Shown piece by piece: positions 4,794-57,944 of a DNA stretch of 58,126 nt; the first letter of the stretch is position 1, and every line of letters begins with the position of its first letter. A program made the translations under genes and the position numbers. A model generated the notes under the pieces. That model did no database searches and was not told the DNA's origin. It saw only the letters and a program-made list of their open reading frames with translations. The stretch is taken from positions 1 through 58,126 of the forward strand of contig VGWC01000008.1 in the NCBI GenBank assembly GCA_016873775.1, read 5' to 3'. Source of the DNA: Ignavibacteria bacterium (GTDB lineage: Bacteria > Bacteroidota > Ignavibacteria > UBA10030 > F1-140-MAGs086).

Positions 4794-5803
4794 CTGTTTG
4801 CGTATTGTTGTATGTAATAGTTTTTGTATTCGCCAGAAAGGATTCGCTTCCACCAACGTTCGTGAGACAAGTACCACTCAATTGTTCCTTGCAATCCTGT
4901 TTCAAAAGTATGTTGCGGAGACCAACCAAGTTCTTTTTTTATTTTCGTTGCATCAATTGCGTAACGTAAATCATGCCCCGGTCTATCTTTTACAAACGTA
5001 ATGAGCGATTCGGGTTTTTCTAAATTTTTCAAAATGAGTTTAACGATATCAATATTTTTCCATTCGTTATTACCGCCAATGTTATACACTTCTCCGACAA
5101 CACCATCGTGCAACACAACATCGAGCGCCGAGCAATGGTCGTTCACGTGCAACCAATCGCGTACGTTTGTTCCTTTTCCATAGACAGGAAGTGGTTTATC
5201 ATTCAACGCATTGATTATCATCAGTGGAATAAGTTTTTCCGGAAATTGATATGCACCATAATTATTAGAACATCGCGTTACAACGACAGGAATATTAAAT
5301 GTGTGTTGATATGCTAATGCAAACATATCAGAACTTGTTTTACTTGCTGAATATGGCGAGTTGGGATGCAGTGAAGTGTTTTCTGTGAACTTTCCGCTTT
5401 CTCCTAATGAACCATAAACTTCGTCAGTAGAAACTTGTAAAAATTTTTCGACAGAATATTTTTTTGCTATGTCGAGTAATACTTGCGTTCCTAAAACATT
5501 GGTGCGAACAAATTCCGATGCGCTCAAAATACTTCTATCTACGTGAGACTCTGCAGCAAAATTTACAATTGCATCAATGGAATATTTTACCATCAATCCT
5601 TCTACAAAAGGGGCATCGCAAATATCACCTTTTTCAAAATGATATCGCGGATTGTCTTCTACATCTTCAAGATTTTCTAAATTTCCGGCATAGGTCAATT
5701 TATCCAGATTCACAATAGTGTATGCAGGATATTTTTGCAACATCCATTTTACAAAATTGGAGCCGATAAACCCCGCACCGCCGGTAATAAGTATATTCGT
5801 CAT
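4790..5803 (-). CDS. rfbB: dTDP-glucose 4,6-dehydratase
   Basis: 337 residues, normal for RmlB. It converts dTDP-glucose to dTDP-4-keto-6-deoxyglucose with bound NAD+. The Rossmann motif TGGAGFIG is at 7-14, the catalytic STDE at 125-128, and the YSASK active-site pair Y151/K155 is intact. The C-terminal NIGGNNEWKNIDIV and RPGHDLRYA blocks are those of RmlB rather than of a generic epimerase. RmlA, which would make its substrate, lies at the other end of this window (54966-56030, plus strand). The RmlC-like gene is 67 bases upstream across a palindromic repeat. Confidence 0.95.
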   Translation of the reverse strand: MTNILITGGAGFIGSNFVKWMLQKYPAYTIVNLDKLTYAGNLENLEDVEDNPRYHFEKGDICDAPFVEGLMVKYSIDAIVNFAAESHVDRSILSASEFVRTNVLGTQVLLDIAKKYSVEKFLQVSTDEVYGSLGESGKFTENTSLHPNSPYSASKTSSDMFALAYQHTFNIPVVVTRCSNNYGAYQFPEKLIPLMIINALNDKPLPVYGKGTNVRDWLHVNDHCSALDVVLHDGVVGEVYNIGGNNEWKNIDIVKLILKNLEKPESLITFVKDRPGHDLRYAIDATKIKKELGWSPQHTFETGLQGTIEWYLSHERWWKRILSGEYKNYYIQQYANR

Positions 5804-5866
5804 TTGTTATTTGTTAATCGTATTCGGAATTTTATTTCTATGAACTAATAACAGATAACTATGAAC
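5804..5866. repeat. Heptad-word palindromic element between rfbC-like gene and rfbB
   Basis: The left arm is written in words such as GTTATTT, GTTAATC and GTATTCG. The right arm, read on the minus strand, gives GTTCATA, GTTATCT and GTTATTA. The two arms therefore pair imperfectly and share a seven-base period. It fills almost all of the gap between the two genes and belongs to the same structural class as the other heptad elements of the window. Confidence 0.55.
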
Positions 5867-5870
5867 TTCT

Positions 5871-6362
5871 TCAATCAAGTTTATAAATTGTATTCGCGTC
5901 ATCTTCGTGGCGAATTTCATCCACTGTTTCTTTCTTTCCGTTTCCCGCAAAAAGTTTATTGGGATAGTTTGTAACCATTCCAAGTTTTCCGCCTACATTT
6001 TTATAAGCGTGAACAACTCCAGGAGGAATCAATACAGATTTCGGTGAATCTTCTCCAGCGTACACCACCATTTTGTTATTATATGTCGGGGAGTTTTTTC
6101 TGTTATCCCACAAATACACTTTGAAATTCGAGGGACCGATAAACCCGAACAAATCCGATTGTTCAACGTGTTCGTGAGGTCCGCGAGCAATATCGGGATG
6201 AGTCACGGATATGTAACTCATAACGGGGAAAAATTGTTCCGCGTTGGGAATACTTTCTTTCATTTCGTCAATGCGAAATGTTTCAGCAAGCCAACCACGC
6301 TCATCAATAAATTTGCGAATGTCACGAATAACGACACCTTCGATCGTGCCTTTCTTAAACAT
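5871..6362 (-). CDS. rfbC: dTDP-4-dehydrorhamnose 3,5-epimerase-like cupin (RmlC family)
   Basis: 163 residues with the RmlC cupin pattern. DERGWLAETFR lies near the N-terminus, and GPHEH stands at the place of the family's RGLHxQ active-site histidine. VLIPPGVVHAYKNVGG is the second cupin strand block. It is shorter than classical RmlC (about 180-190) and the GPHEH variant is typical of the divergent dTDP-sugar epimerase branch, so it may act on a related 4-keto sugar rather than strictly on the rhamnose intermediate. It leads the minus-strand polysaccharide locus. The 195 bases upstream contain no gene and probably the promoter. Confidence 0.75.
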   Translation of the reverse strand: MFKKGTIEGVVIRDIRKFIDERGWLAETFRIDEMKESIPNAEQFFPVMSYISVTHPDIARGPHEHVEQSDLFGFIGPSNFKVYLWDNRKNSPTYNNKMVVYAGEDSPKSVLIPPGVVHAYKNVGGKLGMVTNYPNKLFAGNGKKETVDEIRHEDDANTIYKLD

Positions 6363-12890: not shown

Positions 12891-15800
12891 TTAAAGTGTA
12901 ATTCGGTGAATAACTATTTCGCACATTTCTCCGTTCACATCAAACGATTGAGAAACATCTCCATTATTGATTGTAGAGAATAATGAAAATGCAAGCGTCT
13001 CATTCTGAACATACTCTTTCATTGTTGAAATCGCGTTGTGCAATCGTTCTGTGGTTTTGTAAAAAATTTTTATTCTATCTGTAATTTCAAAGTTGGAATC
13101 TTTGCGCAAGTTTTGAATGCGGTTGACAAACTCACGCGCTAATCCCTCGTTGACAAGTTCTTCGGAGAGTTCTGTATCGAGCGCAACGGTGATTTCGTTA
13201 TCCGATGCAACGAGCCAACCTTGTATATCTTCGCTCAAAATTTCTACATCACTTTTTTCGATGAGAACATTTTGCGATTCAACTTCGAGAGAAATTTTTC
13301 CTTCTACATCAAGGTGAAGTATTTGTTGCGAAGAAAGTTGCTGAACTGCCAGCGCAACTTTCGGCGTTAGTTTTCCGTGTTTTGCGCCAAGAGCCTTGAA
13401 ATTCGGTTTTACTTTTCTGCGAATGATTGCATTATCCATTGCAACGTACTCAATCGCTTTCACGTTAATTTCTTCGATGATAACATTTTCCATTCGTTGA
13501 ATCATTTCTTTATCGCGTTGATTTGCAATCGGGATGAGAATACGTTTCAACGGTTGACGAACTTTCAAATTAGATTTTGTTCTCATTGAGCGAACGAGAA
13601 TGACAATGCGCTCTGCTTTGTCCATTCGCTGTTCAAGTTCTTTGTCAATCGCGTTTTCATTCACTTTCGGAAGCAACGCAAGATGAATGGATTCAACGCT
13701 TTCTTTTTTTGTTACGGAATTTAAATTGCGAAATAATTCTTCTGCAATAAATGGAGCAAACGGCGCGATGAGTTTTGAAATTGTAATCAAACATTCGTAG
13801 AGAGTTTGATACGCGGCAAGTTTATCGCTTCCCGATTCGCTCTTCCAAAAACGTCTTCTGTTTCTTCTCACATACCAATTAGAAAGTTGGTCAATCGTAA
13901 AATCGGAAACAGCGCGCGCGGCTTTCATTATCTCGTATGCATCCATCATTTCATCATACGATTTTACTAATGTATTAAGCGAAGAAATTATCCATCTGTC
14001 AATTTCCGGTCGCTCATTTAATGGAACTTCTCTCCACTGCGAGTCTTCGACTTTTTCTTTGAACGTAAATCCGTCAACATTCGCATACAACGAAAAGAAT
14101 GAATACGTGTTGAGCAACGTTCCGAAAAACTTTCTTTGAACCTCCGCTAACCCCGCTTCATCAAACAATGTTGGTTTCCACGGCGGCGATGTTGTAACCA
14201 AATACCAGCGTGTTGTATCAGCGCCGTATTTTTCCAAAATCATAAACGGGTCAACGGTATTTCCTTTCGACTTCGACATTTTTTGTCCGTCTTTATCGAG
14301 AATCAATTCGTTCACAACAACATTTTTATACGCCGGCTTATCAAACAAAAATGTTGAAATGGAATGCAGCGAATAAAACCAACCGCGCGTTTGGTCAATG
14401 CCTTCGCAAATATAATCGGCGGGATGTTGCGCGTCGAAAATATGTTTGTTCTCAAATGGATAATGCCACTGCGCAAATTGCATTGCACCGGAATCAAACC
14501 ACACGTCAATCAATTCCGGCGTGCGTTTCATTGTTCCGCCGCAAGAACATTTCCACGTAATTCCATCTACAAATGGTTTGTGCAAATCAAGTTGCGAGTT
14601 GCGAGTTGCGAGTTGTGAGTTATCCTTTCCCAAACTTGTAACTCGTAACTCGTAACTCGTAACTCTTTCCTCTAATTCTCGAACACTTCCAACACATTCC
14701 AACTTTCCACAATCCGCACAAATCCAAATCGGAAGCGGCGTTCCCCAAAATCTATCGCGCGACAACGACCAATCTTTATTTTCTTCAAGCCAATTTCCGA
14801 ATCGTCCTTCGCCAACTTCTTTCGGATACCAATTTATTTGCTTGTTCAATTCCACCATTCGCTTTGCATATTTCGTTGTTGCGATATACCACGAATCTCG
14901 CGCGTAATACAACAACGGATTTTTGCAACGCCAGCAATGCGGATATTCGTGCGCGTATGGAAGATGTTTGACAAAATTATTTTTCTCTTTAAGATGAGAA
15001 AATATTTTTTTCTCTGTCGCTTTATCTTTCACATACAAACCGGCAAGTTCTTTCACATCACTTTTGAAATTGCCGCTTCTATCAACAGTATGATATTGAG
15101 GAAGTCCAACACGCTTTCCGAGTTGATAATCATCTTCGCCATACATTACTGCCGTGTGGACAACTCCCGTTCCATCGGTTGTTGTTACGAAATCTGCTGT
15201 ATAAACTTTGTACGATGTTTCCGATTTCAACGTATCAACTTCAAACAATGGAATGTATTCTTTGCCGACTAAATCTTTTCCAAGAATGTGTTCAACTATT
15301 TCATACGAACCAAGTTGCGAGTTTCGAGTTTCAAGTTGCAAGTTTTCCTTTTCTGAACTCGTAACTCGCAACTCGGGACTTGAAACTTTTCCAACATCAG
15401 AAATTACACCAAGACAATCATTTGCAAGGATCCAAAATTCATCGCCGACTTTTATTTTTACGTAATCAATTTTTTCTCCAACAGCAAGCGCAATATTTCC
15501 GGGAAGCGTCCAAGGAGTTGTTGTCCACGAAAGAATAAACGTGTTCGCTTCATTCTTCAATTTAAATTTTATGAACACGGAATTATCCGTAACATTTTCA
15601 TAACCAAGCGAAACTTCGTGCGACGAAAGCGGCGTTTCACAGCGAGGACAATACGGTTGAATCTTAAATCCTTTGTAGAGCAAACCTTTGTCGAAGTATT
15701 GTTTGAGCGCCCACCAAATACTTTCGATATAATTATTTTCAAACGTTACATACGGTTCATCGAGATTTACCCAATAACCCATTCGCGTTGTCATTCGCTC

Positions 15801-16417: not shown

Positions 16418-16422
16418 CTAAT

Positions 16423-16478
16423 CTACTGACTTCTGACTACTGACTACTGACTACTTACTACTTACTACTCACTACTCA
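16423..16478. repeat. Eight tandem heptamers (CTACTGA-type)
   Basis: Eight consecutive 7-mers: CTACTGA, CTTCTGA, CTACTGA, CTACTGA, CTACTTA, CTACTTA, CTACTCA, CTACTCA. The array occupies essentially the whole gap between the DUF2905 gene and the nucleoside phosphorylase and runs up to the latter's stop codon. No complementary arm is visible, so this may be half of an element. Confidence 0.85.
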
Positions 16479-17300
16479 TTTCATTCTCTTCACAACTTCC
16501 TTCATCATCGCAGTCAACTTCGGCTCTGCTTTATCTGCTACTCCAATTACTTCTTTGAGCGAAACAGGTTTCAGCGAATCAGGAAAACACTCATCCGTAA
16601 TAATAGCAAACGCAAGCACTTCCATTCCCATATGCACTGCAACAATGTTTTCGGGAATCGTTGACATTCCCACACTATCCGCGCCAATCATTCGGAGGAA
16701 ACGATATTCGGCGCGCGTTTCTAAATTCGGTCCTGCGACAGAAACATGAACACCTTTTTGCAACGGAAGTTTTAAATCGAGCGCGACGTGTTCTGCAAGT
16801 GCTTGCAATTTTTTTGAATACGGTTCGCTCATATCCGGAAATCGCAGACCGAGTGAATCATCGTTTGTTCCAATCAACGGATTATCACCGAGCAAATTGA
16901 TGTGGTCAACAAGCATTTCGATATCGCCTTTGCGAAACATCGGATTGAGTCCGCCGGCAGCGCACGAAATGAGAAGCGATTTCACGCCAAGAAATTTCAT
17001 TACGCGCACGGGAAACGTAACTTGCTGCAACGTGTAACCTTCGTACTTGTGAAATCGTCCTTGCATTGCAACAACATTTTTGCCTGCAAGTTTTCCGAAA
17101 ATCAATTTGCCGTGATGCGATTCTACAGTCGAAACGGGAAAATGCGGAATGTGTTCATACTCAATCACAACTTGATTCGTAATTTCTTTTGCAAGTTTTC
17201 CCAATCCCGTTCCGAGAATTATTCCAATCGTTGGCTTCATCGAAGTTTTCGTTCGGATGAATTTTAACGCATCGTTTATGTTATTTTGTAATTCACTCAT
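16476..17300 (-). CDS. Purine-nucleoside phosphorylase
   Basis: 274 residues, trimeric PNP (PNP/MTAP) family. It carries out phosphorolysis of inosine, guanosine or similar nucleosides to base plus ribose-1-phosphate. Evidence is GTGLGKLA near the N-terminus (phosphate loop), HFPVSTVESHHGKL, the GRFHKYEGY block and the ESVGMST-like ADSVGMSTIPENIVA motif with the base-contacting region, then ITDECFPDS near the C-terminus. It is flanked by two repeats (16423-16478 downstream, 17312-17366 upstream). Confidence 0.93.
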   Translation of the reverse strand: MSELQNNINDALKFIRTKTSMKPTIGIILGTGLGKLAKEITNQVVIEYEHIPHFPVSTVESHHGKLIFGKLAGKNVVAMQGRFHKYEGYTLQQVTFPVRVMKFLGVKSLLISCAAGGLNPMFRKGDIEMLVDHINLLGDNPLIGTNDDSLGLRFPDMSEPYSKKLQALAEHVALDLKLPLQKGVHVSVAGPNLETRAEYRFLRMIGADSVGMSTIPENIVAVHMGMEVLAFAIITDECFPDSLKPVSLKEVIGVADKAEPKLTAMMKEVVKRMK

Positions 17301-17311
17301 ATTTTAATTTT

Positions 17312-17366
17312 GCCACTAAACCACGAAGACACTAAAAATATTTTTGTGCTTTTGTGTCTTTGTGGC
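17312..17366. repeat. Palindromic intergenic repeat (CCACGAAGACAC type)
   Basis: GCCACTAAACCACGAAGACA (17312-17331) pairs imperfectly with TGTGTCTTTGTGGC (17353-17366), around an AT-rich centre. It fills the gap between the nucleoside phosphorylase and divIVA genes and could act as a hairpin in the minus-strand transcript. Confidence 0.7.
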
Positions 17367-17943: not shown

Positions 17944-18075
17944 TAAATTCCAAATTTCAAAACTCAAATTTCAAACAAATTCTAAAACACAAAATCCAAA
18001 TTTTTTGGATGAAGTTTTCGAAAATGAAATTTGGGTTTTGTTTGACCTTTGTAATTTATCATTTGAAATTTTTCC
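17944..18075. repeat. Long palindromic heptad-type repeat between divIVA and yggS
   Basis: A left arm of words such as AAATTCC, AAATTTC, AAAACTC, AAATTTC and ACACAAA, and a right arm (18028-18075) with TTTGGGTTTTGTTTGACC and ATTTGAAATTT, can pair over about 45 bases around ATCCAAATTTTTTGGAT. It leaves little room for a conventional promoter or terminator and has no coding character. Confidence 0.7.
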
Positions 18076-21605: not shown

Positions 21606-21635
21606 TTGTCATTCCCGCGCAAGCGGGAATGACAA
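21606..21635. repeat. Perfect palindrome with 13-bp stem between dxr and rseP
   Basis: TTGTCATTCCCGC (21606-21618) and GCGGGAATGACAA (21623-21635) form a perfect stem with a four-base loop, GCAA. It is GC-rich in an AT-rich context and resembles the widespread TCATTCCCGC...GCGGGAATGA dispersed palindromes of many bacteria. It lacks a T-run and is therefore more REP-like than a classical terminator. Confidence 0.85.
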
Positions 21636-21662: not shown

Positions 21663-23333
21663 ATGCAATTTCTCAACTCACTACTTTATTTTGGCATCAC
21701 CATTGGCATACTCGTTTTTATTCACGAGTTAGGACATTATCTCGCAGCAAAACTCAGCGGAATGCGCGTTGATAGATTTTCGCTTGGATTTCCACCGCGT
21801 GCAATCGGTTTTCATTTCGGAACAAAAAAGTTGCAACAAAAATTTTTACGCGATATCAAGCAATCCATTTTTGCTCATCTCACATTTCACCAGATTCATC
21901 ATTTACTCACAGAACAACAACTTTCCAAAACGCACGATGAATCGCTTGAATTTCTTGCGACTGTTTTTTCCATCGAAGAAAATGAAATACAGCATACTGT
22001 AAAAAACGAAAAAGAATACAAACCTTCTCATTTAATGATGAACGAAGAATTTTTTCCTTCGCATATTGATGAGCGGTTCAAAGACGAATTGTTCGATTTA
22101 TTCTCTAATACCCAATCACTCGTAGATGATTTCAGCGAGTATCTTGACATTCGTGATTGGAAACGATTCAAAGAATATTATGCAACGGATTATTGTTTGT
22201 CGTGGCTTCCGATTGGCGGCTTCGTAAAAATCAATGGAATGATTGACGAAAGTTTCGATACAGAATTTCTACACCACAAACCAAAACCGTGGGAATTTCG
22301 CGCTCGTCCGTTGTTACAGAAAATGTTCGTCATCACTGCAGGAGTATTGATGAATCTAATTCTCGCTCTCGGAATTTTTTGGGGAATAAATTACACGCAA
22401 GGAAAAAATGTTTTGCAAACAACAGAAGTAAGTGTTCGCGCAAATAGCCCTGCATCACGATTTGGATTTTTACTCGGCGATAGGATTTTGAAAATCAACA
22501 ACACCGAAGTAACAAACTGGAACGATGTTTTTGAAACGCAACATCTCGCCGCATCAACAAATGAAAACAATGGCATCGTAAGTTTTCTTTTTGTCCGAAA
22601 TGGAAGAGAACAAACTATTTCCGTTGATAGAAGCGCAATCAATGATACGTTTGGATTATTTCCACGCGGCATTTTACCGAAAGTCAATCTTGTGGAATCA
22701 GGGAAACCTGCGGACAAAGTCGGCTTGCAACCAAACGATATAATCACCGCAGTAAATAATAAACCGATTGATTTCTTTTCGCTTTCTTCGACGATTCACA
22801 GTTATGCGGGAAAAGAAATTGCGCTTGAATGGAAACATAACGGCGAAACAAAAACCGCAAACATAACCGTTCTTGATGAAGGAAGAATTGGTATTGCGCT
22901 CGATACTGCAAACACGATTCCAACTCAGCATATTCAATATTCTCTGCTTGAAGCGCTTCCCATTGGTATTGCGTATGGAATTCAAATTTGTGAAGTATCG
23001 TATTCCAATATTCTTCAACTCATCACGGGAAAAGTTTCGTTGAAATCTTCTCTTGCTGGACCAGTTCGTATTGCGCAAATGTCAGCACAAGCGGCGGAAA
23101 ATGGTGTGTCGCAATTTCTCACCTTCGTTGGATTGCTCAGCATTAGTTTGGCGATTCTCAACATACTTCCCTTTCCTGCGCTCGATGGCGGACATTTTAT
23201 GTTTCTTCTGTATGAAGGAATTTTTCGCCGTGAAATTCCGGTGAAAGTAAAACTCGTAATTCAACAAGCGGGATTTTATATGTTATTGTTGTTGATGGTA
23301 ATTATTTTGTATAACGATATTTCGAATTTGTAA
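21663..23333 (+). CDS. rseP: RseP-type site-2 intramembrane metalloprotease with a long insertion
   Basis: 556 residues against about 450 usual. The zinc motif HELGH is at 21-25 in TM1. The second motif NILPFPALDGGHFMF sits near the C-terminus, followed by further membrane segments. Two PDZ regions lie between (VRANSPASRFGFLLGDRIL and VESGKPADKVGLQPNDII). Residues about 56-176, between the FSLGFPP start and the LPIGGFVKI block that normally follow each other closely, are an extra hydrophilic, helix-like segment rich in Glu, His and Phe. The protease cleaves membrane-bound anti-sigma factors or signal peptides. Its 3' end is 3 bases before the methyltransferase start. Confidence 0.92.
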   Translation: MQFLNSLLYFGITIGILVFIHELGHYLAAKLSGMRVDRFSLGFPPRAIGFHFGTKKLQQKFLRDIKQSIFAHLTFHQIHHLLTEQQLSKTHDESLEFLATVFSIEENEIQHTVKNEKEYKPSHLMMNEEFFPSHIDERFKDELFDLFSNTQSLVDDFSEYLDIRDWKRFKEYYATDYCLSWLPIGGFVKINGMIDESFDTEFLHHKPKPWEFRARPLLQKMFVITAGVLMNLILALGIFWGINYTQGKNVLQTTEVSVRANSPASRFGFLLGDRILKINNTEVTNWNDVFETQHLAASTNENNGIVSFLFVRNGREQTISVDRSAINDTFGLFPRGILPKVNLVESGKPADKVGLQPNDIITAVNNKPIDFFSLSSTIHSYAGKEIALEWKHNGETKTANITVLDEGRIGIALDTANTIPTQHIQYSLLEALPIGIAYGIQICEVSYSNILQLITGKVSLKSSLAGPVRIAQMSAQAAENGVSQFLTFVGLLSISLAILNILPFPALDGGHFMFLLYEGIFRREIPVKVKLVIQQAGFYMLLLLMVIILYNDISNL

Positions 23334-49226: not shown

Positions 49227-50062
49227 ATGCAAAACAACTAATTCGCGCTCCCTCCGTTGCGGGAATATTTTATACGAAAAATCCTGAAAAACTTTCTCAA
49301 ACAATTCTTCATCTACTCGAAACTGTTCCTTCCTTTTCTGTGAAAGAAGAAATTCTTGCACTCATTTCTCCCCACGCTGGATATATGTATTCCGGTTTAA
49401 CTGCGGCGTACGGTTACAAAACTCTCGAACAAAGAATATTGGAAACTGCTGTTATTATTGCGCCAAGCCATTTTGAATTTTTTGAAACCATTTCTGTTTA
49501 TCCAGGGAAATGTTACACTACTCCTTTTGGTGAAATGGAAATTGATGTTCAACTTCGCTCGGAATTACTGAAAGAAAATTCTTTCGTGATGAATGACGAA
49601 ATCGGTCATCGCAAAGAACACGCCATCGAAGTTCAACTTCCATTTCTTCAATTATTGTTTGGAAATAAGATTAAGATTCTTCCAATCATTATTGGAAATC
49701 AAACAAGGGAAAATTGTTTTTCGCTTGGTGAAACATTGGGGAAAATTTTACGAGAGACAAATGCAATACTGATTGCGAGTTCTGATTTGTCACATTATTA
49801 CAATTCAAAAACGGCTGATGAACTCGATGAAAAATTTATCAATTGCGTAATGAATTTCGACGAAGATAAACTTATGACGAAATTAGAAAACAATGCAACA
49901 GAAGGCTGCGGCGGCGGTTGTGTCGTTGCAGTTCTTCACGCGGCAAAACTTCTCGGCGCAACGAAGACAAGAATTTTGCATCATTGCAATTCCGGCGATG
50001 TTACGGGAGATAGAGAAAGAGTTGTCGGATATATGAGTGGTATCGTGATTTGTGAATCGTGA
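49223..50062 (+). CDS. amrB: AmmeMemoRadiSam system protein B (Memo family)
   Basis: 279 residues of the Memo fold related to class III dioxygenases. ISPHAGYMYSGLTAAYGY, APSHFEFFETISVYPG, HRKEHAIEVQLPFLQ, ASSDLSHYY and GCGGGCVVAVLHAAKLLGATKTRIL...VTGDRERVVGYMSG are all present, with the His/Asp/Cys metal-site candidates conserved. The last few codons run into a heptad repeat (from 50045), which therefore forms the C-terminal GIVICES end. Confidence 0.9.
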   Translation: MNAKQLIRAPSVAGIFYTKNPEKLSQTILHLLETVPSFSVKEEILALISPHAGYMYSGLTAAYGYKTLEQRILETAVIIAPSHFEFFETISVYPGKCYTTPFGEMEIDVQLRSELLKENSFVMNDEIGHRKEHAIEVQLPFLQLLFGNKIKILPIIIGNQTRENCFSLGETLGKILRETNAILIASSDLSHYYNSKTADELDEKFINCVMNFDEDKLMTKLENNATEGCGGGCVVAVLHAAKLLGATKTRILHHCNSGDVTGDRERVVGYMSGIVICES

Positions 50063-50150
50063 TTTGTTATTCGTTAATTGTCAGTTGTCATTTGTAATTC
50101 TAAATTTTTATCACAAACCCACTAATGACAAATTACCAATGACAATTTAC
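50045..50150. repeat. Heptad-word palindrome overlapping the memo 3' end
   Basis: From 50045 words of seven bases follow each other: GTGATTT, GTGAATC, GTGATTT, GTTATTC, GTTAATT, GTCAGTT, GTCATTT, GTAATTC. The opposite arm (to 50150), in reverse complement, gives GTAAATT, GTCATTG, GTAATTT, GTCATTA. The arms pair around an AT-rich centre. The first words are part of the Memo coding sequence. Confidence 0.85.
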
Positions 50151-50190: not shown

Positions 50191-51087
50191 ATGAAAAAGC
50201 ATCCAAACAAAATAACTATCATCGGCGCGGGACAAGTTGGTTCAACTCTTGCTTTGCTTTTTAAAGAAAATGGTTTTGAAATTGTTTCTGTTATTTCCCG
50301 AACAAAAGAATCTGCGAAGAAACTTGGGAAACTTGTTCAATGTAAAAATGTTTCTACTTCGATAAAAGATATTTCTATACAAACAGAATTTCTTCTCCTT
50401 GCTGTTCCAGATAATCTTTTAAAAAATATTGCTGATGAAATTGCTTCTGTTTCTCATTTGAATTTCAAAAAAATAGTTGTCGCACACACTTCGGGAGTTC
50501 ATTCCGTTGATGTTCTTTCTTCACTTAAAACAAAAGGCGCAAACGTTGCTGGCTTTCATCCGATTCAATCTTTTCCGAAACATTTTTCCGTTCAGCAATT
50601 GAAAAAGAATATTACGAACAACATTTGTTTCGGCATTGAATGTGAAAAGAAATTGCAACCAAAACTTTCTTCTCTTGCAAAAAAACTTGGAGGAAAATTT
50701 GTTTTCGTTCCTTCTGAATTGAAACCATTGTATCATCTCGTTTGCGTTGTGAGTTCAAGTTTTTCTGTTACGTTATTGAAAGTGATTGAAGAAATTTCAT
50801 CTCATTTTCCTTTTGCAAAAAATTGGAAAGATGCTTTCTCTCCTATTCTTCTTTCTTCAATTTCTAATGCGCTTGCAACTTCTCCAACAAAAGCGCTTAC
50901 AGGACCAATTCCCCGTGGCGATTTGCATACAATTGAATTACATTTAAATGCTCTCGTGCAATTTTCTCCCGAACTAATTTCTTTTTATAAAGAACTTTCT
51001 ACAAAAGCAGTTTCCATTGCAATAGAACGAGGAAGTATTTCGAATGAGCAAGAGAAAAGACTTTTACAAGTCCTGAAAAAGAAATAG
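50191..51087 (+). CDS. Rossmann-fold DUF2520-family protein (ProC-like)
   Basis: 298 residues. Residues 8-16 IGAGQVGST form the dinucleotide-binding loop of an NAD(P)-dependent oxidoreductase. Residues about 130-290 are the DUF2520 helical domain (GFHPIQSFPK, LAKKLGGKFVFVPSELKPLYHLVCVVSS, LTGPIPRGDLHTIELHLNAL). The reaction is unknown; pyrroline-5-carboxylate-reductase-like chemistry is suggested by the family. Its last 56 codons exist as a second copy at 54661-54831, and the gene is followed at once by a palindromic repeat. Confidence 0.9.
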   Translation: MKKHPNKITIIGAGQVGSTLALLFKENGFEIVSVISRTKESAKKLGKLVQCKNVSTSIKDISIQTEFLLLAVPDNLLKNIADEIASVSHLNFKKIVVAHTSGVHSVDVLSSLKTKGANVAGFHPIQSFPKHFSVQQLKKNITNNICFGIECEKKLQPKLSSLAKKLGGKFVFVPSELKPLYHLVCVVSSSFSVTLLKVIEEISSHFPFAKNWKDAFSPILLSSISNALATSPTKALTGPIPRGDLHTIELHLNALVQFSPELISFYKELSTKAVSIAIERGSISNEQEKRLLQVLKKK

Positions 51088-51167
51088 AACACAGATGACA
51101 CGGATTGAACGGATTTACACAGAAAAAAATCAGTGAACATCAGCCACATCAGTGTCATCCGTGTTCT
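51087..51167. repeat. Palindromic repeat after the DUF2520 gene (copy 1)
   Basis: GAACACAGATGACACGG at the left and CCxGTGTTCT-type text at the right (GTGTCATCCGTGTTCT, 51152-51167) form a long imperfect hairpin, with ATCAGTGAACATCA in the middle. The same element lies at 54831-54910 after the partial copy of the gene. Confidence 0.85.
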
Positions 51168-51210
51168 ATTAACTCTATGATAAACTTTTCGTATTGTTGC
51201 CAACACAAAA

Positions 51211-54660: not shown

Positions 54661-54831
54661 GATTTGCATACAATTGAATTAAATTTAAATGCTCTCGAGC
54701 AATTTTCTCCCAAACTAATTTCTTTTTATAAAGAACTTTCTACAAAAGCAGTTACGATTGCAAAAAAAAAACGAGGAAGTATTTCAAAAGAACAAAAGAA
54801 AAAACTTTTCAACATTCTGAAAAAGAAATAG
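54661..54831 (+). pseudogene. Second copy of the 3' end of the DUF2520 gene
   Basis: Reads in frame DLHTIELNLNALEQFSPKLI, then SFYKELSTKAVTIAK and RGSISKEQKKKLFNILKKK up to the TAG at 54829-54831. It corresponds to 50920-51087 of the intact gene, with one extra codon (a lysine in an A-rich run) and about a dozen residue changes, mostly to Lys or Asn. No upstream part or start codon exists. It is followed by the same palindromic repeat as the intact gene and then by the rmlA leader. Confidence 0.85.
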
Positions 54832-54910
54832 AACACAGATTACACAGATGAAACAGATTTTACACGGATAAAAAATCAGTGAACATCTACATCAGTGTCA
54901 TCCGTGTTCT
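54831..54910. repeat. Palindromic repeat after the DUF2520 fragment (copy 2)
   Basis: GAACACAGATTACACAGATG at the left and GTGTCATCCGTGTTCT at the right, with AATCAGTGAACATC inside. It matches the element at 51087-51167 and is followed in both places by AACTTTTCGTATT text. Confidence 0.85.
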
Positions 54911-54965
54911 ATTAACTCATCAATAAACTTTTCGTATTTTTGTCCGCAAAAATTCTGAACAAAAT

Positions 54966-56030
54966 ATGAAAGCACTCATCGCAAGCGGAGGACGCGGCAC
55001 TCGACTTCGACCGCTCACGCATACGCAAAACAAACATCTCATTCCCATCGCAAACAAACCGATTTTGCATTACGCAATCGAACACGTTGTTGATGCGGGA
55101 ATAAAAGAAATTGGCATTGTTGTGAACGCGGATGATACCGAAGTTCAAAAAACAATCGGTAACGGCGACAAGTGGAATGTGAAGATTACGTTCATTCCAC
55201 AAACTATTCCCGGCGGATTATCGCAAGTGGTGCAACTCGCAGAAAAATTTATCGGCAAAGACAATTTTATTTTTTATCTCGGCGATAATATGGTTGTCGG
55301 CGGCGTGAAGCGTTTCATAGACGAGTTTGAAAAAAGTAAATGTGATTGTTTTCTCACGCTCGCAAAAGTAAAAGACCCGGAACGATTTGGCGTTCCTGAA
55401 ATCAAGAACGGAAGAATTATCGGTGTGGAAGAAAAACCGAAACTTCCGAAAAGTCAATTTGCTGTTTCGGGAATTTACATTTACAATCACCACATTTTTG
55501 AAGCGGTGAACAGCATAAAACCATCGGCGCGCGGCGAGTTGGAAATTTCCGATGCGCATCAGTATTTGATTGACAAAGGTTTTACGATTGGTTATGCGGA
55601 AATTACCGGTTGGTGGAAAGACACGGGAAAACCAAATGATTTGCTTGAAGCGAATCGTCTTGTGCTGGATAATATTCAAACAAAAATTTCCGGCAATGTT
55701 GATGCGCTTTCTTCGATTGCGGGAAAAGTAATTGTTGAAAGCGGCGCGAAGATTACAAACTCGATTGTGCGCGGTCCTGCAATCATTGGAAAAAATTGCG
55801 TTCTCGAAAATAGTTATGTTGGTCCGTTCACTTCGATTGGCGATAATTCGCTCGTGCAAAACAGTGAAGTGGAATACAGTATCGTGATGACGCATTGTAA
55901 AATTCAAAACGTGAACATTCGCATCGAAGGAAGTATTCTCGGTAACGATGTTGAAATTGTAGAAGCAATGGGAAAGCCACGCGTTCATCGTTTTATGATT
56001 GGCGACCAAAGCAGAGTTGAAGTTGCTTGA
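54966..56030 (+). CDS. rfbA: Glucose-1-phosphate thymidylyltransferase (long RmlA type)
   Basis: 354 residues. The nucleotidyltransferase domain opens SGGRGTRLRPLTHTQNKHLIPIANKPI (pyrophosphorylase loop), with GDNMVVGG and VSGIYIYNHHIFEAV later, and a C-terminal left-handed beta-helix (GNVDALSSIAGKVIVESG, GPAIIGKNCVL, YVGPFTSIGDNS) that distinguishes the long, archaeal or actinobacterial-type enzyme. It makes dTDP-glucose, the substrate of the RmlB at 4790-5803. Its 3' end is 4 bases before the first arm of the four-helix-bundle inverted repeat. Confidence 0.9.
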   Translation: MKALIASGGRGTRLRPLTHTQNKHLIPIANKPILHYAIEHVVDAGIKEIGIVVNADDTEVQKTIGNGDKWNVKITFIPQTIPGGLSQVVQLAEKFIGKDNFIFYLGDNMVVGGVKRFIDEFEKSKCDCFLTLAKVKDPERFGVPEIKNGRIIGVEEKPKLPKSQFAVSGIYIYNHHIFEAVNSIKPSARGELEISDAHQYLIDKGFTIGYAEITGWWKDTGKPNDLLEANRLVLDNIQTKISGNVDALSSIAGKVIVESGAKITNSIVRGPAIIGKNCVLENSYVGPFTSIGDNSLVQNSEVEYSIVMTHCKIQNVNIRIEGSILGNDVEIVEAMGKPRVHRFMIGDQSRVEVA

Positions 56031-56033
56031 AAA

Positions 56034-56055
56034 GATTTGGGATGTGGGATTTGAG
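56034..56055. repeat. Left arm of a perfect 22-bp inverted repeat around the four-helix-bundle gene
   Basis: GATTTGG, GATGTGG, GATTTGA words with a period of seven, four bases after the rmlA stop. The arm is the exact reverse complement of 56494-56515. Confidence 0.9.
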
Positions 56056-56083
56056 TTTTGGGTTTATTTAAAGAAAGGTATTG

Positions 56084-56533
56084 ATGATGGAAAGTGGTTA
56101 TGAGAAATTAGAAATTTATAAACTCTCTTATGAGTTAGCAATTCAAGTTCACAAAATGACTTTAACACTTCCAAAGTTTGAAACATATGAAGAAGGAAGT
56201 CAAATTCGACGTTCATCAAAATCAATCACTTCAAATATTGTTGAAGGATATTGCCTTCGCAGACATCAAAACGAATATTTGCAATATCTACATCACGCAT
56301 TTGGTTCTTGTGAAGAAACTCGATTACATTTAAAATTTTTATTTGAAACAAAATCATTTACGAATGAAGAACTCTACAATCAACTTTCAGAAAAATATTT
56401 ACAACTTGGTAAAATGATTTATCGTTTTATCGAAAGCATCTTTTCTGAACATGGAAAACCATACTACGTTAAAGAACAAGAAGTTATTTACGGCTCAAAT
56501 CCCACATCCCAAATCTCAAATCCAAGTTTATGA
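56084..56533 (+). CDS. Four-helix-bundle protein of the 23S rRNA intervening-sequence (IVP) family
   Basis: 149 residues from the ATG at 56084, with AAGAAAGG a few bases upstream. The signature is intact: YEKLEIYKLSYELAIQVHKM, FETYEEGSQIRRSSKSITSNIVEGY and LHHAFGSCEETRLHLKF, then a fourth helix ending in FIESIF. The family forms pentameric four-helix bundles and was first seen as the ORF of intervening sequences in 23S rRNA of Leptospira and Coxiella. Here it is outside rRNA and lies inside a perfect inverted repeat (56034-56055 and 56494-56515). Its last 14 residues (YGSNPTSQISNPSL) are written largely by the right arm, and its stop overlaps the crotonase start (ATGA). Function is unknown. 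Confidence 0.9.
   Translation: MMESGYEKLEIYKLSYELAIQVHKMTLTLPKFETYEEGSQIRRSSKSITSNIVEGYCLRRHQNEYLQYLHHAFGSCEETRLHLKFLFETKSFTNEELYNQLSEKYLQLGKMIYRFIESIFSEHGKPYYVKEQEVIYGSNPTSQISNPSL
56494..56515. repeat. Right arm of the 22-bp inverted repeat
   Basis: CTCAAATCCCACATCC followed by CAAATC, the exact reverse complement of 56034-56055. The heptad pattern continues a few bases further (TCAAATCC). It is inside the 3' end of the four-helix-bundle gene. Confidence 0.9.
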
Positions 56534-57312
56534 CATTTCAAGATCTTTTCTTCTCAACACAAAACAAAATTGCAACTGTAACCATCAATCGTCCCGATAA
56601 ATTGAATGCGCTGAATGCAACAGCGAAATCGGAGTTGAAAAATCTTTTTGAGTGTTTGAAAACTTCCGATGATGTTGATGTCGTTATTCTCACTGGTGCG
56701 GGAGAAAAAGCATTTGTTGCAGGAACAGATATCGGTGAACTCATAACGCTCGATGGAAATTCGGGAAAAGAATTTGCAAGCGGCGGACAAGAAATTTTCG
56801 ACGCGATTCAACATCTCGGAAAACCGGTTATCGCTGCAATCAATGGTTACGCGCTCGGCGGCGGATGTGAACTTGCGCTTGCGTGTCATATTCGCATCGC
56901 AAGTGAAAATGCAAAGTTCGGACAACCTGAAGTGAATCTCGGAATTATTCCCGGTTACGGTGGAACGCAGCGGCTTGCGCGAATTGTCGGCGTGGGAAAA
57001 GCGATGGAAATGATTCTCACGGGAAATCCGATTGATGCGAATGAAGCGTTGCGCATCGGGTTGGTAAATAAAGTTGTTCCGATTTCCGAATTGTTGAAAA
57101 CGGCAAACGACATTGCGCAAACCATTGCATCGAAAGGACAAATTGCAATTCGTATGGCGCTCAAAGCCGTGAATATGACGCTCGAAACTTCACTCAGCGA
57201 AGGACTAAAACTTGAAGCGAGTTTGTTCGGCGTGTGTTGCGATTCCGCCGATATGAAGGAAGGAACGAAAGCGTTTCTTGAAAAACGAAAAGCGAGCTTT
57301 ACTGGAAAATGA
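56530..57312 (+). CDS. Enoyl-CoA hydratase/isomerase (crotonase family)
   Basis: 260 residues. VTINRPDKLNALN, VVILTGAGEKAFVAGTDIGEL (first oxyanion-hole strand), GYALGGGCELALAC with the catalytic-type Glu, and FGQPEVNLGIIPGYGGTQRLAR with the second Glu are intact. The pair of glutamates and the GGGCE motif favour a hydratase acting on short-chain enoyl-CoA. Its ATG overlaps the stop of the four-helix-bundle gene, so its upstream control is now partly that of the element. A heptad repeat starts at its stop codon. Confidence 0.93.
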   Translation: MTFQDLFFSTQNKIATVTINRPDKLNALNATAKSELKNLFECLKTSDDVDVVILTGAGEKAFVAGTDIGELITLDGNSGKEFASGGQEIFDAIQHLGKPVIAAINGYALGGGCELALACHIRIASENAKFGQPEVNLGIIPGYGGTQRLARIVGVGKAMEMILTGNPIDANEALRIGLVNKVVPISELLKTANDIAQTIASKGQIAIRMALKAVNMTLETSLSEGLKLEASLFGVCCDSADMKEGTKAFLEKRKASFTGK

Positions 57313-57376
57313 TTTTAGATTACTGATTATGGATTTCTGTTTTCCGTAATCTAAAATCTGAAATCTGAAATCTATA
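57311..57376. repeat. Heptad-word palindrome between crotonase and next gene
   Basis: The left arm has GATTTTA, GATTACT, GATTATG, GATTTCT. The right arm, in reverse complement, has GATTTCA, GATTTCA, GATTTTA, GATTACG. The right arm touches the ATG at 57377. The word GATTTnn is related to that of the 22-bp repeat at 56034. Confidence 0.88.
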
Positions 57377-57884: not shown

Positions 57885-57944
57885 GCCACTAATTACACGA
57901 ATTCTAACTAATATAAATAAGAGTTCATTCGTGAAATTTGTGGC
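57885..57944. repeat. Palindromic repeat upstream of glyS
   Basis: GCCACTAATTACACGAATT (57885-57903) pairs with ATTCGTGAAATTTGTGGC (57927-57944) around an AT-rich centre. Seven-base spacing of the words can be followed, but less clearly than elsewhere. Confidence 0.75.

Follow-up and report, generated by a model that had tools for sequence, protein, structure and literature searches.

A four-helix-bundle gene flanked by heptad inverted repeats, a candidate copy of a dispersed hairpin element

The unit between rmlA and a crotonase gene

We analysed a window of 58,126 nucleotides (contig VGWC01000008.1) from an Ignavibacteria bacterium. Towards its end, a gene of the four-helix-bundle (4HB) family lies between rmlA and an enoyl-CoA hydratase/crotonase gene and is flanked by a perfect inverted repeat (Table 1). 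A repeat search of the window returned arms of 23 nt, 100% complementary and separated by 438 nt, so that the unit spans 484 nt. The initial annotation had reported a perfect 22-bp inverted repeat with a seven-nucleotide period around the gene; that pair is contained in the arms found here, and the period is confirmed. The arm reads GATTTGG GATGTGG GATTTGAG, lag 7 gives the highest self-similarity in both arms, and the heptad tract of the left arm extends to about position 56062. The locus has an inverted-repeat score of 23, compared with a median of 11, a 99th percentile of 18.6 and a maximum of 21 among 344 control open reading frames (ORFs) of the same genome.

The gene had also been described as enclosed by the arms. 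The arms do flank it, but it does not lie wholly between them: the right arm falls within the 3' end of the ORF, where it encodes codons near the C-terminus in a segment predicted to be disordered. In the orthologue of genome G024, the ORF stops just ahead of its arm. The 4HB stop codon (TGA, 56531–56533) overlaps the crotonase ATG at 56530. In the predicted mRNA, the arms pair into a long perfect stem with the 4HB ORF in the loop. An Rfam scan of the window gave no match.

Table 1. Features of the unit, its neighbours and the gene-less heptad palindromes of the window
Feature	Coordinates	Strand	Remarks
rmlA	54966–56030	+	TIGR01208; upstream neighbour; junction conserved
Left arm of perfect inverted repeat	56033–56055	+	AGATTTGGGATGTGGGATTTGAG; GGGATTT/GGGATGT-type heptads
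Putative ribosome-binding site	56070–56078	+	Purine-rich AAAGAAAGG; between left arm and start codon; inferred from sequence
4HB gene	56087–56533	+	S23/IVP family; PF05635, TIGR02436
Right arm	56494–56516	+	Exact reverse complement of left arm
Enoyl-CoA hydratase/crotonase gene	56530–57312	+	Downstream neighbour; start overlaps 4HB stop
Gene-less weak heptad palindrome	5786–5871		GTTATTT class
Gene-less heptad palindrome	14585–14675		GAGTTGC class, as in the arms of L002, another 4HB locus of this genome
Gene-less heptad palindrome	15310–15376		GAGTTGC class (L002)
Gene-less heptad tract	16420–16484		AGTAGTC/AGTAGTA class, as in the arms of 4HB locus L003
Gene-less A-rich heptad palindrome	17945–18071		Class of 4HB locus L010
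Gene-less heptad palindrome	50059–50150		GTTATTC/GTCATTT class
Gene-less heptad palindrome	57304–57375		ATCTGAA class

The assignment of the protein to the 23S rRNA intervening-sequence family is borne out by matches to PF05635 (92.8 bits; cut-off 33.8) and TIGR02436 (95.4 bits; cut-off 24), and the rmlA/crotonase setting by annotation of the neighbours. In a domain search of the protein, PF05635 was the sole match and a Y1 (HUH) transposase domain was absent. The predicted fold (pLDDT 87) has TM scores of 0.93 to 2gsc, 0.82 to 2rld, 0.80 to Avd (4dwl) and 0.74 to Avd in the ribonucleoprotein of a diversity-generating retroelement (DGR; 8ub7); a resemblance of PF05635 to Avd has been noted before (PMC10053308). 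The solved members 2gsc and 2rld each have five chains in the crystal, and S23p of X. campestris is a homopentamer (PMC4990558). Between related copies, pS is saturated at 0.75–0.97 while pN is 0.17–0.30, from which it follows that the protein is conserved; substitution patterns of this kind indicate purifying selection.

Heptad arms surround the family in other genomes and phyla

The genome, a draft of 2.54 Mb, contains 12 members of the 4HB family. All 11 with complete flanks lie in inverted repeats, with scores of 16–33 (control ORF median 11), and for ten of them at least one side has 7 as its best lag, while for one the best lag is 8. The arm sequence differs for every copy. The copies of one genome are themselves diverged, mostly 20–37% identical, so there has been no recent burst; those that aligned to the window protein are 21–37% identical to it. 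A classical insertion sequence with fixed terminal repeats was considered and is ruled out because each copy carries its own arms. We also asked whether control ORFs with high scores are insertion-sequence transposases; the one checked (window 21663–23330) encodes an M50 protease. Directly upstream of this rseP-like gene, positions 21606–21635 hold a different palindrome, TTGTCATTCCCGCGCAAGCGGGAATGACAA.

Within the order, the family occurs in 35 of 41 genomes, with up to 16 divergent copies per genome. For 103 4HB genes from 30 genomes, the median score of a gene's own arms was 18, versus 10 for mismatched pairs that combine the upstream arm of one gene with the downstream arm of another from that genome (Mann–Whitney p = 9e-44). 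The mismatched 95th percentile was exceeded by 85% of the loci, and the arms of the remaining 15% or so did not rise above it. Self-match was 0.58 at lags 7 and 14 versus 0.26–0.33 at other lags. PIN-domain genes of similar size in the same genomes, used as a control, had inverted-repeat scores of 7–13 and no heptads. These genomes are drafts, and their sampling is incomplete.

Scanning species genomes with a single canonical clade yielded 80 loci, of which 79 were analysed; the cross-phylum sample therefore rests on that one clade query. The loci come from at least 12 phyla, including Spirochaetota, Cyanobacteria, Chloroflexota, Pseudomonadota, Nitrospirota and Bacteroidota, as well as Planctomycetota, Acidobacteriota, Verrucomicrobiota, Actinomycetota, Myxococcota and Fibrobacterota. 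Their median inverted-repeat score is 18 and their lag-7 self-match 0.69. The pooled heptad is A(.76) G(.90) [C/T] N N T(.73) [C/T], and over these phyla the clade mostly retains the word AG[CT]NNT[CT] (AGCNNTC/T). By a strict count, repeated AGC units are present in 37 of 64 loci with good arms; other heptad words occur in Poribacteria and some others. A lack of enrichment of heptad palindromes around family members in other genomes would have refuted the initial annotation, and the enrichment is instead strong, in other genomes and phyla alike.

The distribution of the proteins is scattered. Their tree requires 35 phylum changes versus a minimum of 13, with many forks unresolved because the alignment has few columns. 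Copies on cyanobacterial plasmids have heptad arms in four of five cases. Phage records contained no match to a related 4HB protein.

Where the neighbours are co-directional (tandem pairs), the 4HB gene is in sense with them in 78 of 80 cases (p = 3e-21), and PIN genes in the same setting in 8 of 13. Because the longest ORF defined the strand of each neighbour, shadow ORFs make this count noisier. Insofar as predicted ORFs can establish it, insertion within operons is in sense. One exception to this rule is locus L325 on plasmid pNe_5 of Nostoc edaphicum, where a 4HB gene with TAGGGAG arms lies between two ribonucleotide reductase subunit genes and is antisense to both.

The heptad follows the protein clade

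Between genomes, arm similarity tracks protein similarity (Mantel r = 0.369; 0 of 2000 permutations, maximum 0.07). This test leaves phylogeny uncorrected, and the similarity tests used arms scoring at least 15. Protein pairs at least 50% identical have an arm similarity of 0.57 when they share a flanking gene (n = 50) and 0.44 when they do not (n = 90), against a baseline of 0.25 with a 95th percentile of 0.40; flanks of 0.8–1.5 kb were used to define synteny. Sequence comparison shows the 4HB gene and its clade-specific heptad arms to be one unit, with related proteins at unrelated sites sharing a heptad. The arms of a different, SVGANY-type 4HB subfamily are A-rich, whereas of 79 canonical arms with a skew, 78 are G-rich on the 5' side.

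The clade of the window gene occupies the rmlA–crotonase junction in this genome (G000), G024 and G040, and another junction in G019 and G028. Orthologues with the gene but without any arms would have spoken against the association put forward in the initial annotation; G024 and G040, which belong to other families, retain heptad arms at the same junction. Many copies are syntenic between genera, implying long vertical retention. In same-site orthologues, the two arms of a copy match each other better than they match those of the orthologue (20.4 versus 16.9; p = 3e-6), so both arms of a copy change together.

The median arm length is 4.7–5.2 heptad units. An arm of five heptads fits a ring of five subunits, but we set it aside as proof because of the broad spread and the selection bias introduced by the inverted-repeat threshold.

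Gene-less palindromes and their cognate proteins

The palindromes of the window had been taken to be non-coding copies of a single architecture. Seven are of the heptad type (Table 1). The all-heptad reading nonetheless fails because four others (51083–51170, 54827–54913, 17312–17366 and 57885–57944) form a second, GxxExxY-associated class. Palindromes of this class have a period of about 8–10 nt (for example, CACAGAGGCACGGAG, AACACAGATGACACGGAT and CACGAAGACACGAAG) and flank GxxExxY/PDDEXK_3 (PF13366) genes. At PF13366 loci (n = 32; L062–L065, L252–L280), the own-flank inverted-repeat score is 20.5 versus 10 for mismatched flanks, and the genes often lie between two direct copies of the whole palindrome.

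Tight tracts in 458 kb of this genome number 11 at lag 7, five at lag 14 (as expected) and 0–1 at other lags. A looser scan gave 34 gene-less tracts; compared with the arm sets of 27 genomes, the genome's own set ranked first for 12 and first or second for 19. G000 has about 11 loci with the pattern GAGTTRC-GAGTTRC-GAGTT, G001 has five and G035 has one; the 38 other genomes have none, and reversed-pattern controls are near zero. Among the copies sampled, the protein clade of this pattern (L002/L081) comes from G000 and G001 alone (p = 0.004). The octad GAGTADWT is present in five of nine genomes with its protein clade versus three of 32 without (p = 0.007). A third pattern, AAAAGTN, is spread over 15 genomes. 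These genome comparisons point to dispersed gene-less palindromes occurring mainly where the cognate protein clade is present, a dependence that rests on the two repeat classes tested formally, both with small numbers.

Relatives lack the gene at occupied sites

The rmlA–crotonase junction is conserved in the order. It lacks the 4HB gene in G001, a genome of the same genus whose rmlA is 94% identical, and also in G003, G004, G008, G009, G013, G017, G018 and G022. In G001, the gene is missing from the sites of L004, L005, L006, L009 and L012 and retained at those of L002 and L007; in G002, it is absent from the sites of L003, L006 and L007. The suggestion that the unit is mobile, made in the initial annotation, is favoured by this comparison, in which same-genus relatives have empty sites at six occupied loci. 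No target-site duplication or fixed end was identified.

Many of the gene-empty spacers of G001 contain gene-less palindromes. The one at the L012 site is closest to the arms of the own-genome locus L010, the tract at the rmlA site is closest to the arms of G001's own L139, and GxxExxY-type palindromes are present at three sites. In at least one spacer, the gene-less palindrome matches in class the gene-bearing palindrome of G000. The rmlA junction of G019 (L067) carries only a heptad tract together with a Y1/IS200-like (PF01797) transposase ORF with an MPNHLHM motif. Palindrome-linked elements of several kinds thus seem to have a hot spot in the rmlA–crotonase spacer.

Relation to known systems

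Intervening sequences of 23S rRNA lie inside helix 9, 25 or 45. That of Coxiella is 444 nt long and has a 28-bp terminal stem whose loop contains the S23p ORF. Depending on the strain, two or three tandem GACAGAT heptamers precede this ORF. RNase III cleaves the sequence, and interpretations discussed for it are a remnant of transposition and a mobile element (PMC4990558). The unit described here shares with the intervening sequences of Coxiella and Leptospira the protein family and the position of the ORF within a loop closed by terminal inverted repeats, and with that of Coxiella the heptameric repeats beside the ORF and the sense orientation in the host transcript. Unlike them, it lies between rmlA and crotonase genes rather than in an rRNA helix, reaches up to 16 divergent copies per genome, and has clade-specific heptad arms and gene-less relatives.

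RAYT genes are likewise flanked by inverted palindromic repeats; the protein and the repeat co-evolve, and cognate repeats go only with the gene and are plentiful in its presence (PMC2817692). Just as in RAYT/REP systems (REPIN, BIME), the repeats flanking 4HB genes co-vary with the protein, and in the two classes tested formally, cognate gene-less repeats depend on the presence of the gene. The differences are that the 4HB protein lacks a HUH/Y1 domain, that gene-less copies are far fewer, and that the repeats are clade-variable tandem heptads without a GTAG-like head.

Intergenic tandem heptamers of the TAACTGA type, a further likeness to the 4HB arms, are known from Beggiatoaceae, Cyanobacteria and Bacteroidetes, with a patchy, apparently horizontal distribution and an unknown mechanism (PMC4679880). 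Unlike the arms, they are direct repeats with no known carrier, and the 4HB protein is not mentioned in that report. In the open-access literature, we found no paper linking the 4HB family to palindromes or dispersed heptads, the Coxiella heptamers excepted.

Interpretation

We propose, with a probability of roughly two in three, that positions 56033–56533 are one copy of a dispersed, horizontally transferred element in which a 4HB gene is carried in a hairpin, similar to RAYT/REP systems, its recognition and mobility being inferred. The best reading of the unit is a free-standing, mRNA-borne relative of the 23S rRNA intervening sequence. The gene would sit in the loop of a long hairpin, each arm comprising about five tandem heptads. 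The clade-specific word, the roughly five words per arm, the paired arms, the gene-less cognates and the sense insertion together suggest that tandem heptads are bound by the ring as a single strand. This ring, Avd-like and with five subunits, may recognise its own heptads in single-stranded RNA or DNA, each subunit possibly reading one of them. Such recognition could enable hairpins with and without the gene to spread into intergenic spacers, much as REPs spread through RAYT. Since no known motif of a nuclease, recombinase or reverse transcriptase is present in the protein, we presume that host enzymes would do the cutting and joining. RNase III could cleave the paired arms of the transcript, as it does in rRNA, and neighbouring genes would stay functional.

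The RAYT/REP-like association suggested in the initial annotation draws support from the co-variation of protein and arms and from gene-less cognate repeats that occur mainly with the cognate protein. That the protein binds or moves the palindromes is inference only, since no binding, excision or insertion was observed. More tentatively, and with somewhat less than even confidence, these units could represent an undescribed class of mobile element in at least 12 phyla, in which a non-catalytic ring reads a clade-specific heptad code and spreads hairpins via host enzymes. If this is true, such elements would explain many heptanucleotide spacer repeats and the origin of rRNA intervening sequences.

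The main rival holds that the unit is not mobile and that the protein is a self-regulating RNA-binding ring resembling TRAP, with the arms as operators and the gene-less palindromes as targets in other transcripts. TRAP is a ring protein that binds tandem (G/U)AG RNA repeats with degenerate spacer positions; the analogy is mechanistic only (a ring and a tandem short word), with no homology claimed and no binding data for the 4HB protein. The sense bias in tandem pairs, the purifying selection, the syntenic retention between genera and a heptad word with both conserved and degenerate positions all suit regulation. We nevertheless consider it unlikely that regulation is the whole explanation, because it fails on the same-genus empty sites, the scatter across phyla, the arms common to unrelated sites and the many divergent copies per genome. 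A regulatory role could coexist with mobility.

A slightly weaker contender treats the palindromes as independent elements spreading by slippage and template switching, and the gene as a passenger that repeatedly lands in their loops. It accommodates the gene-less palindromes of several classes in the same spacers of relatives, including the spacer whose palindrome class is gene-bearing in G000, and the variable heptamer number in Coxiella. A passenger of random hairpins would not be expected, however, to have a heptad that follows the protein clade over genomes and phyla, and cognate gene-less repeats mostly accompany the cognate protein.

Avd works together with a reverse transcriptase, and the 4HB protein shares its fold, so a retroelement in which the protein acts like the Avd of DGRs was also considered; the sense orientation, too, suggests an RNA step. 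Unlike a DGR host, however, this genome lacks a reverse transcriptase: there is no PF00078 match in it (12 copies), nor in G008 (14 copies) or G027 (15 copies), and reverse transcriptases occur in only 10 of 41 relatives. We regard this reading as highly improbable and reject it for want of a reverse transcriptase in the genome. A chance or low-complexity artefact has next to no credibility: the arms are repetitive and the spacers AT-rich, but the mismatched-pair, PIN-gene and ordinary-ORF controls and the near-zero reversed GAGTTRC pattern refute it.

The hairpin-element reading places dispersed palindromes in a common framework with rRNA intervening sequences and Avd, and gives a large orphan protein family and the long-noted heptanucleotide spacer repeats a home in which function can be tested. 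With each protein clade paired with its own 7-nt word, a protein–nucleic-acid code could be worked out.

One 4HB clade (L005, L112, L120, L115 and L118) has octads (GAGTANNT) in place of heptads and offers a natural test of what determines the period.
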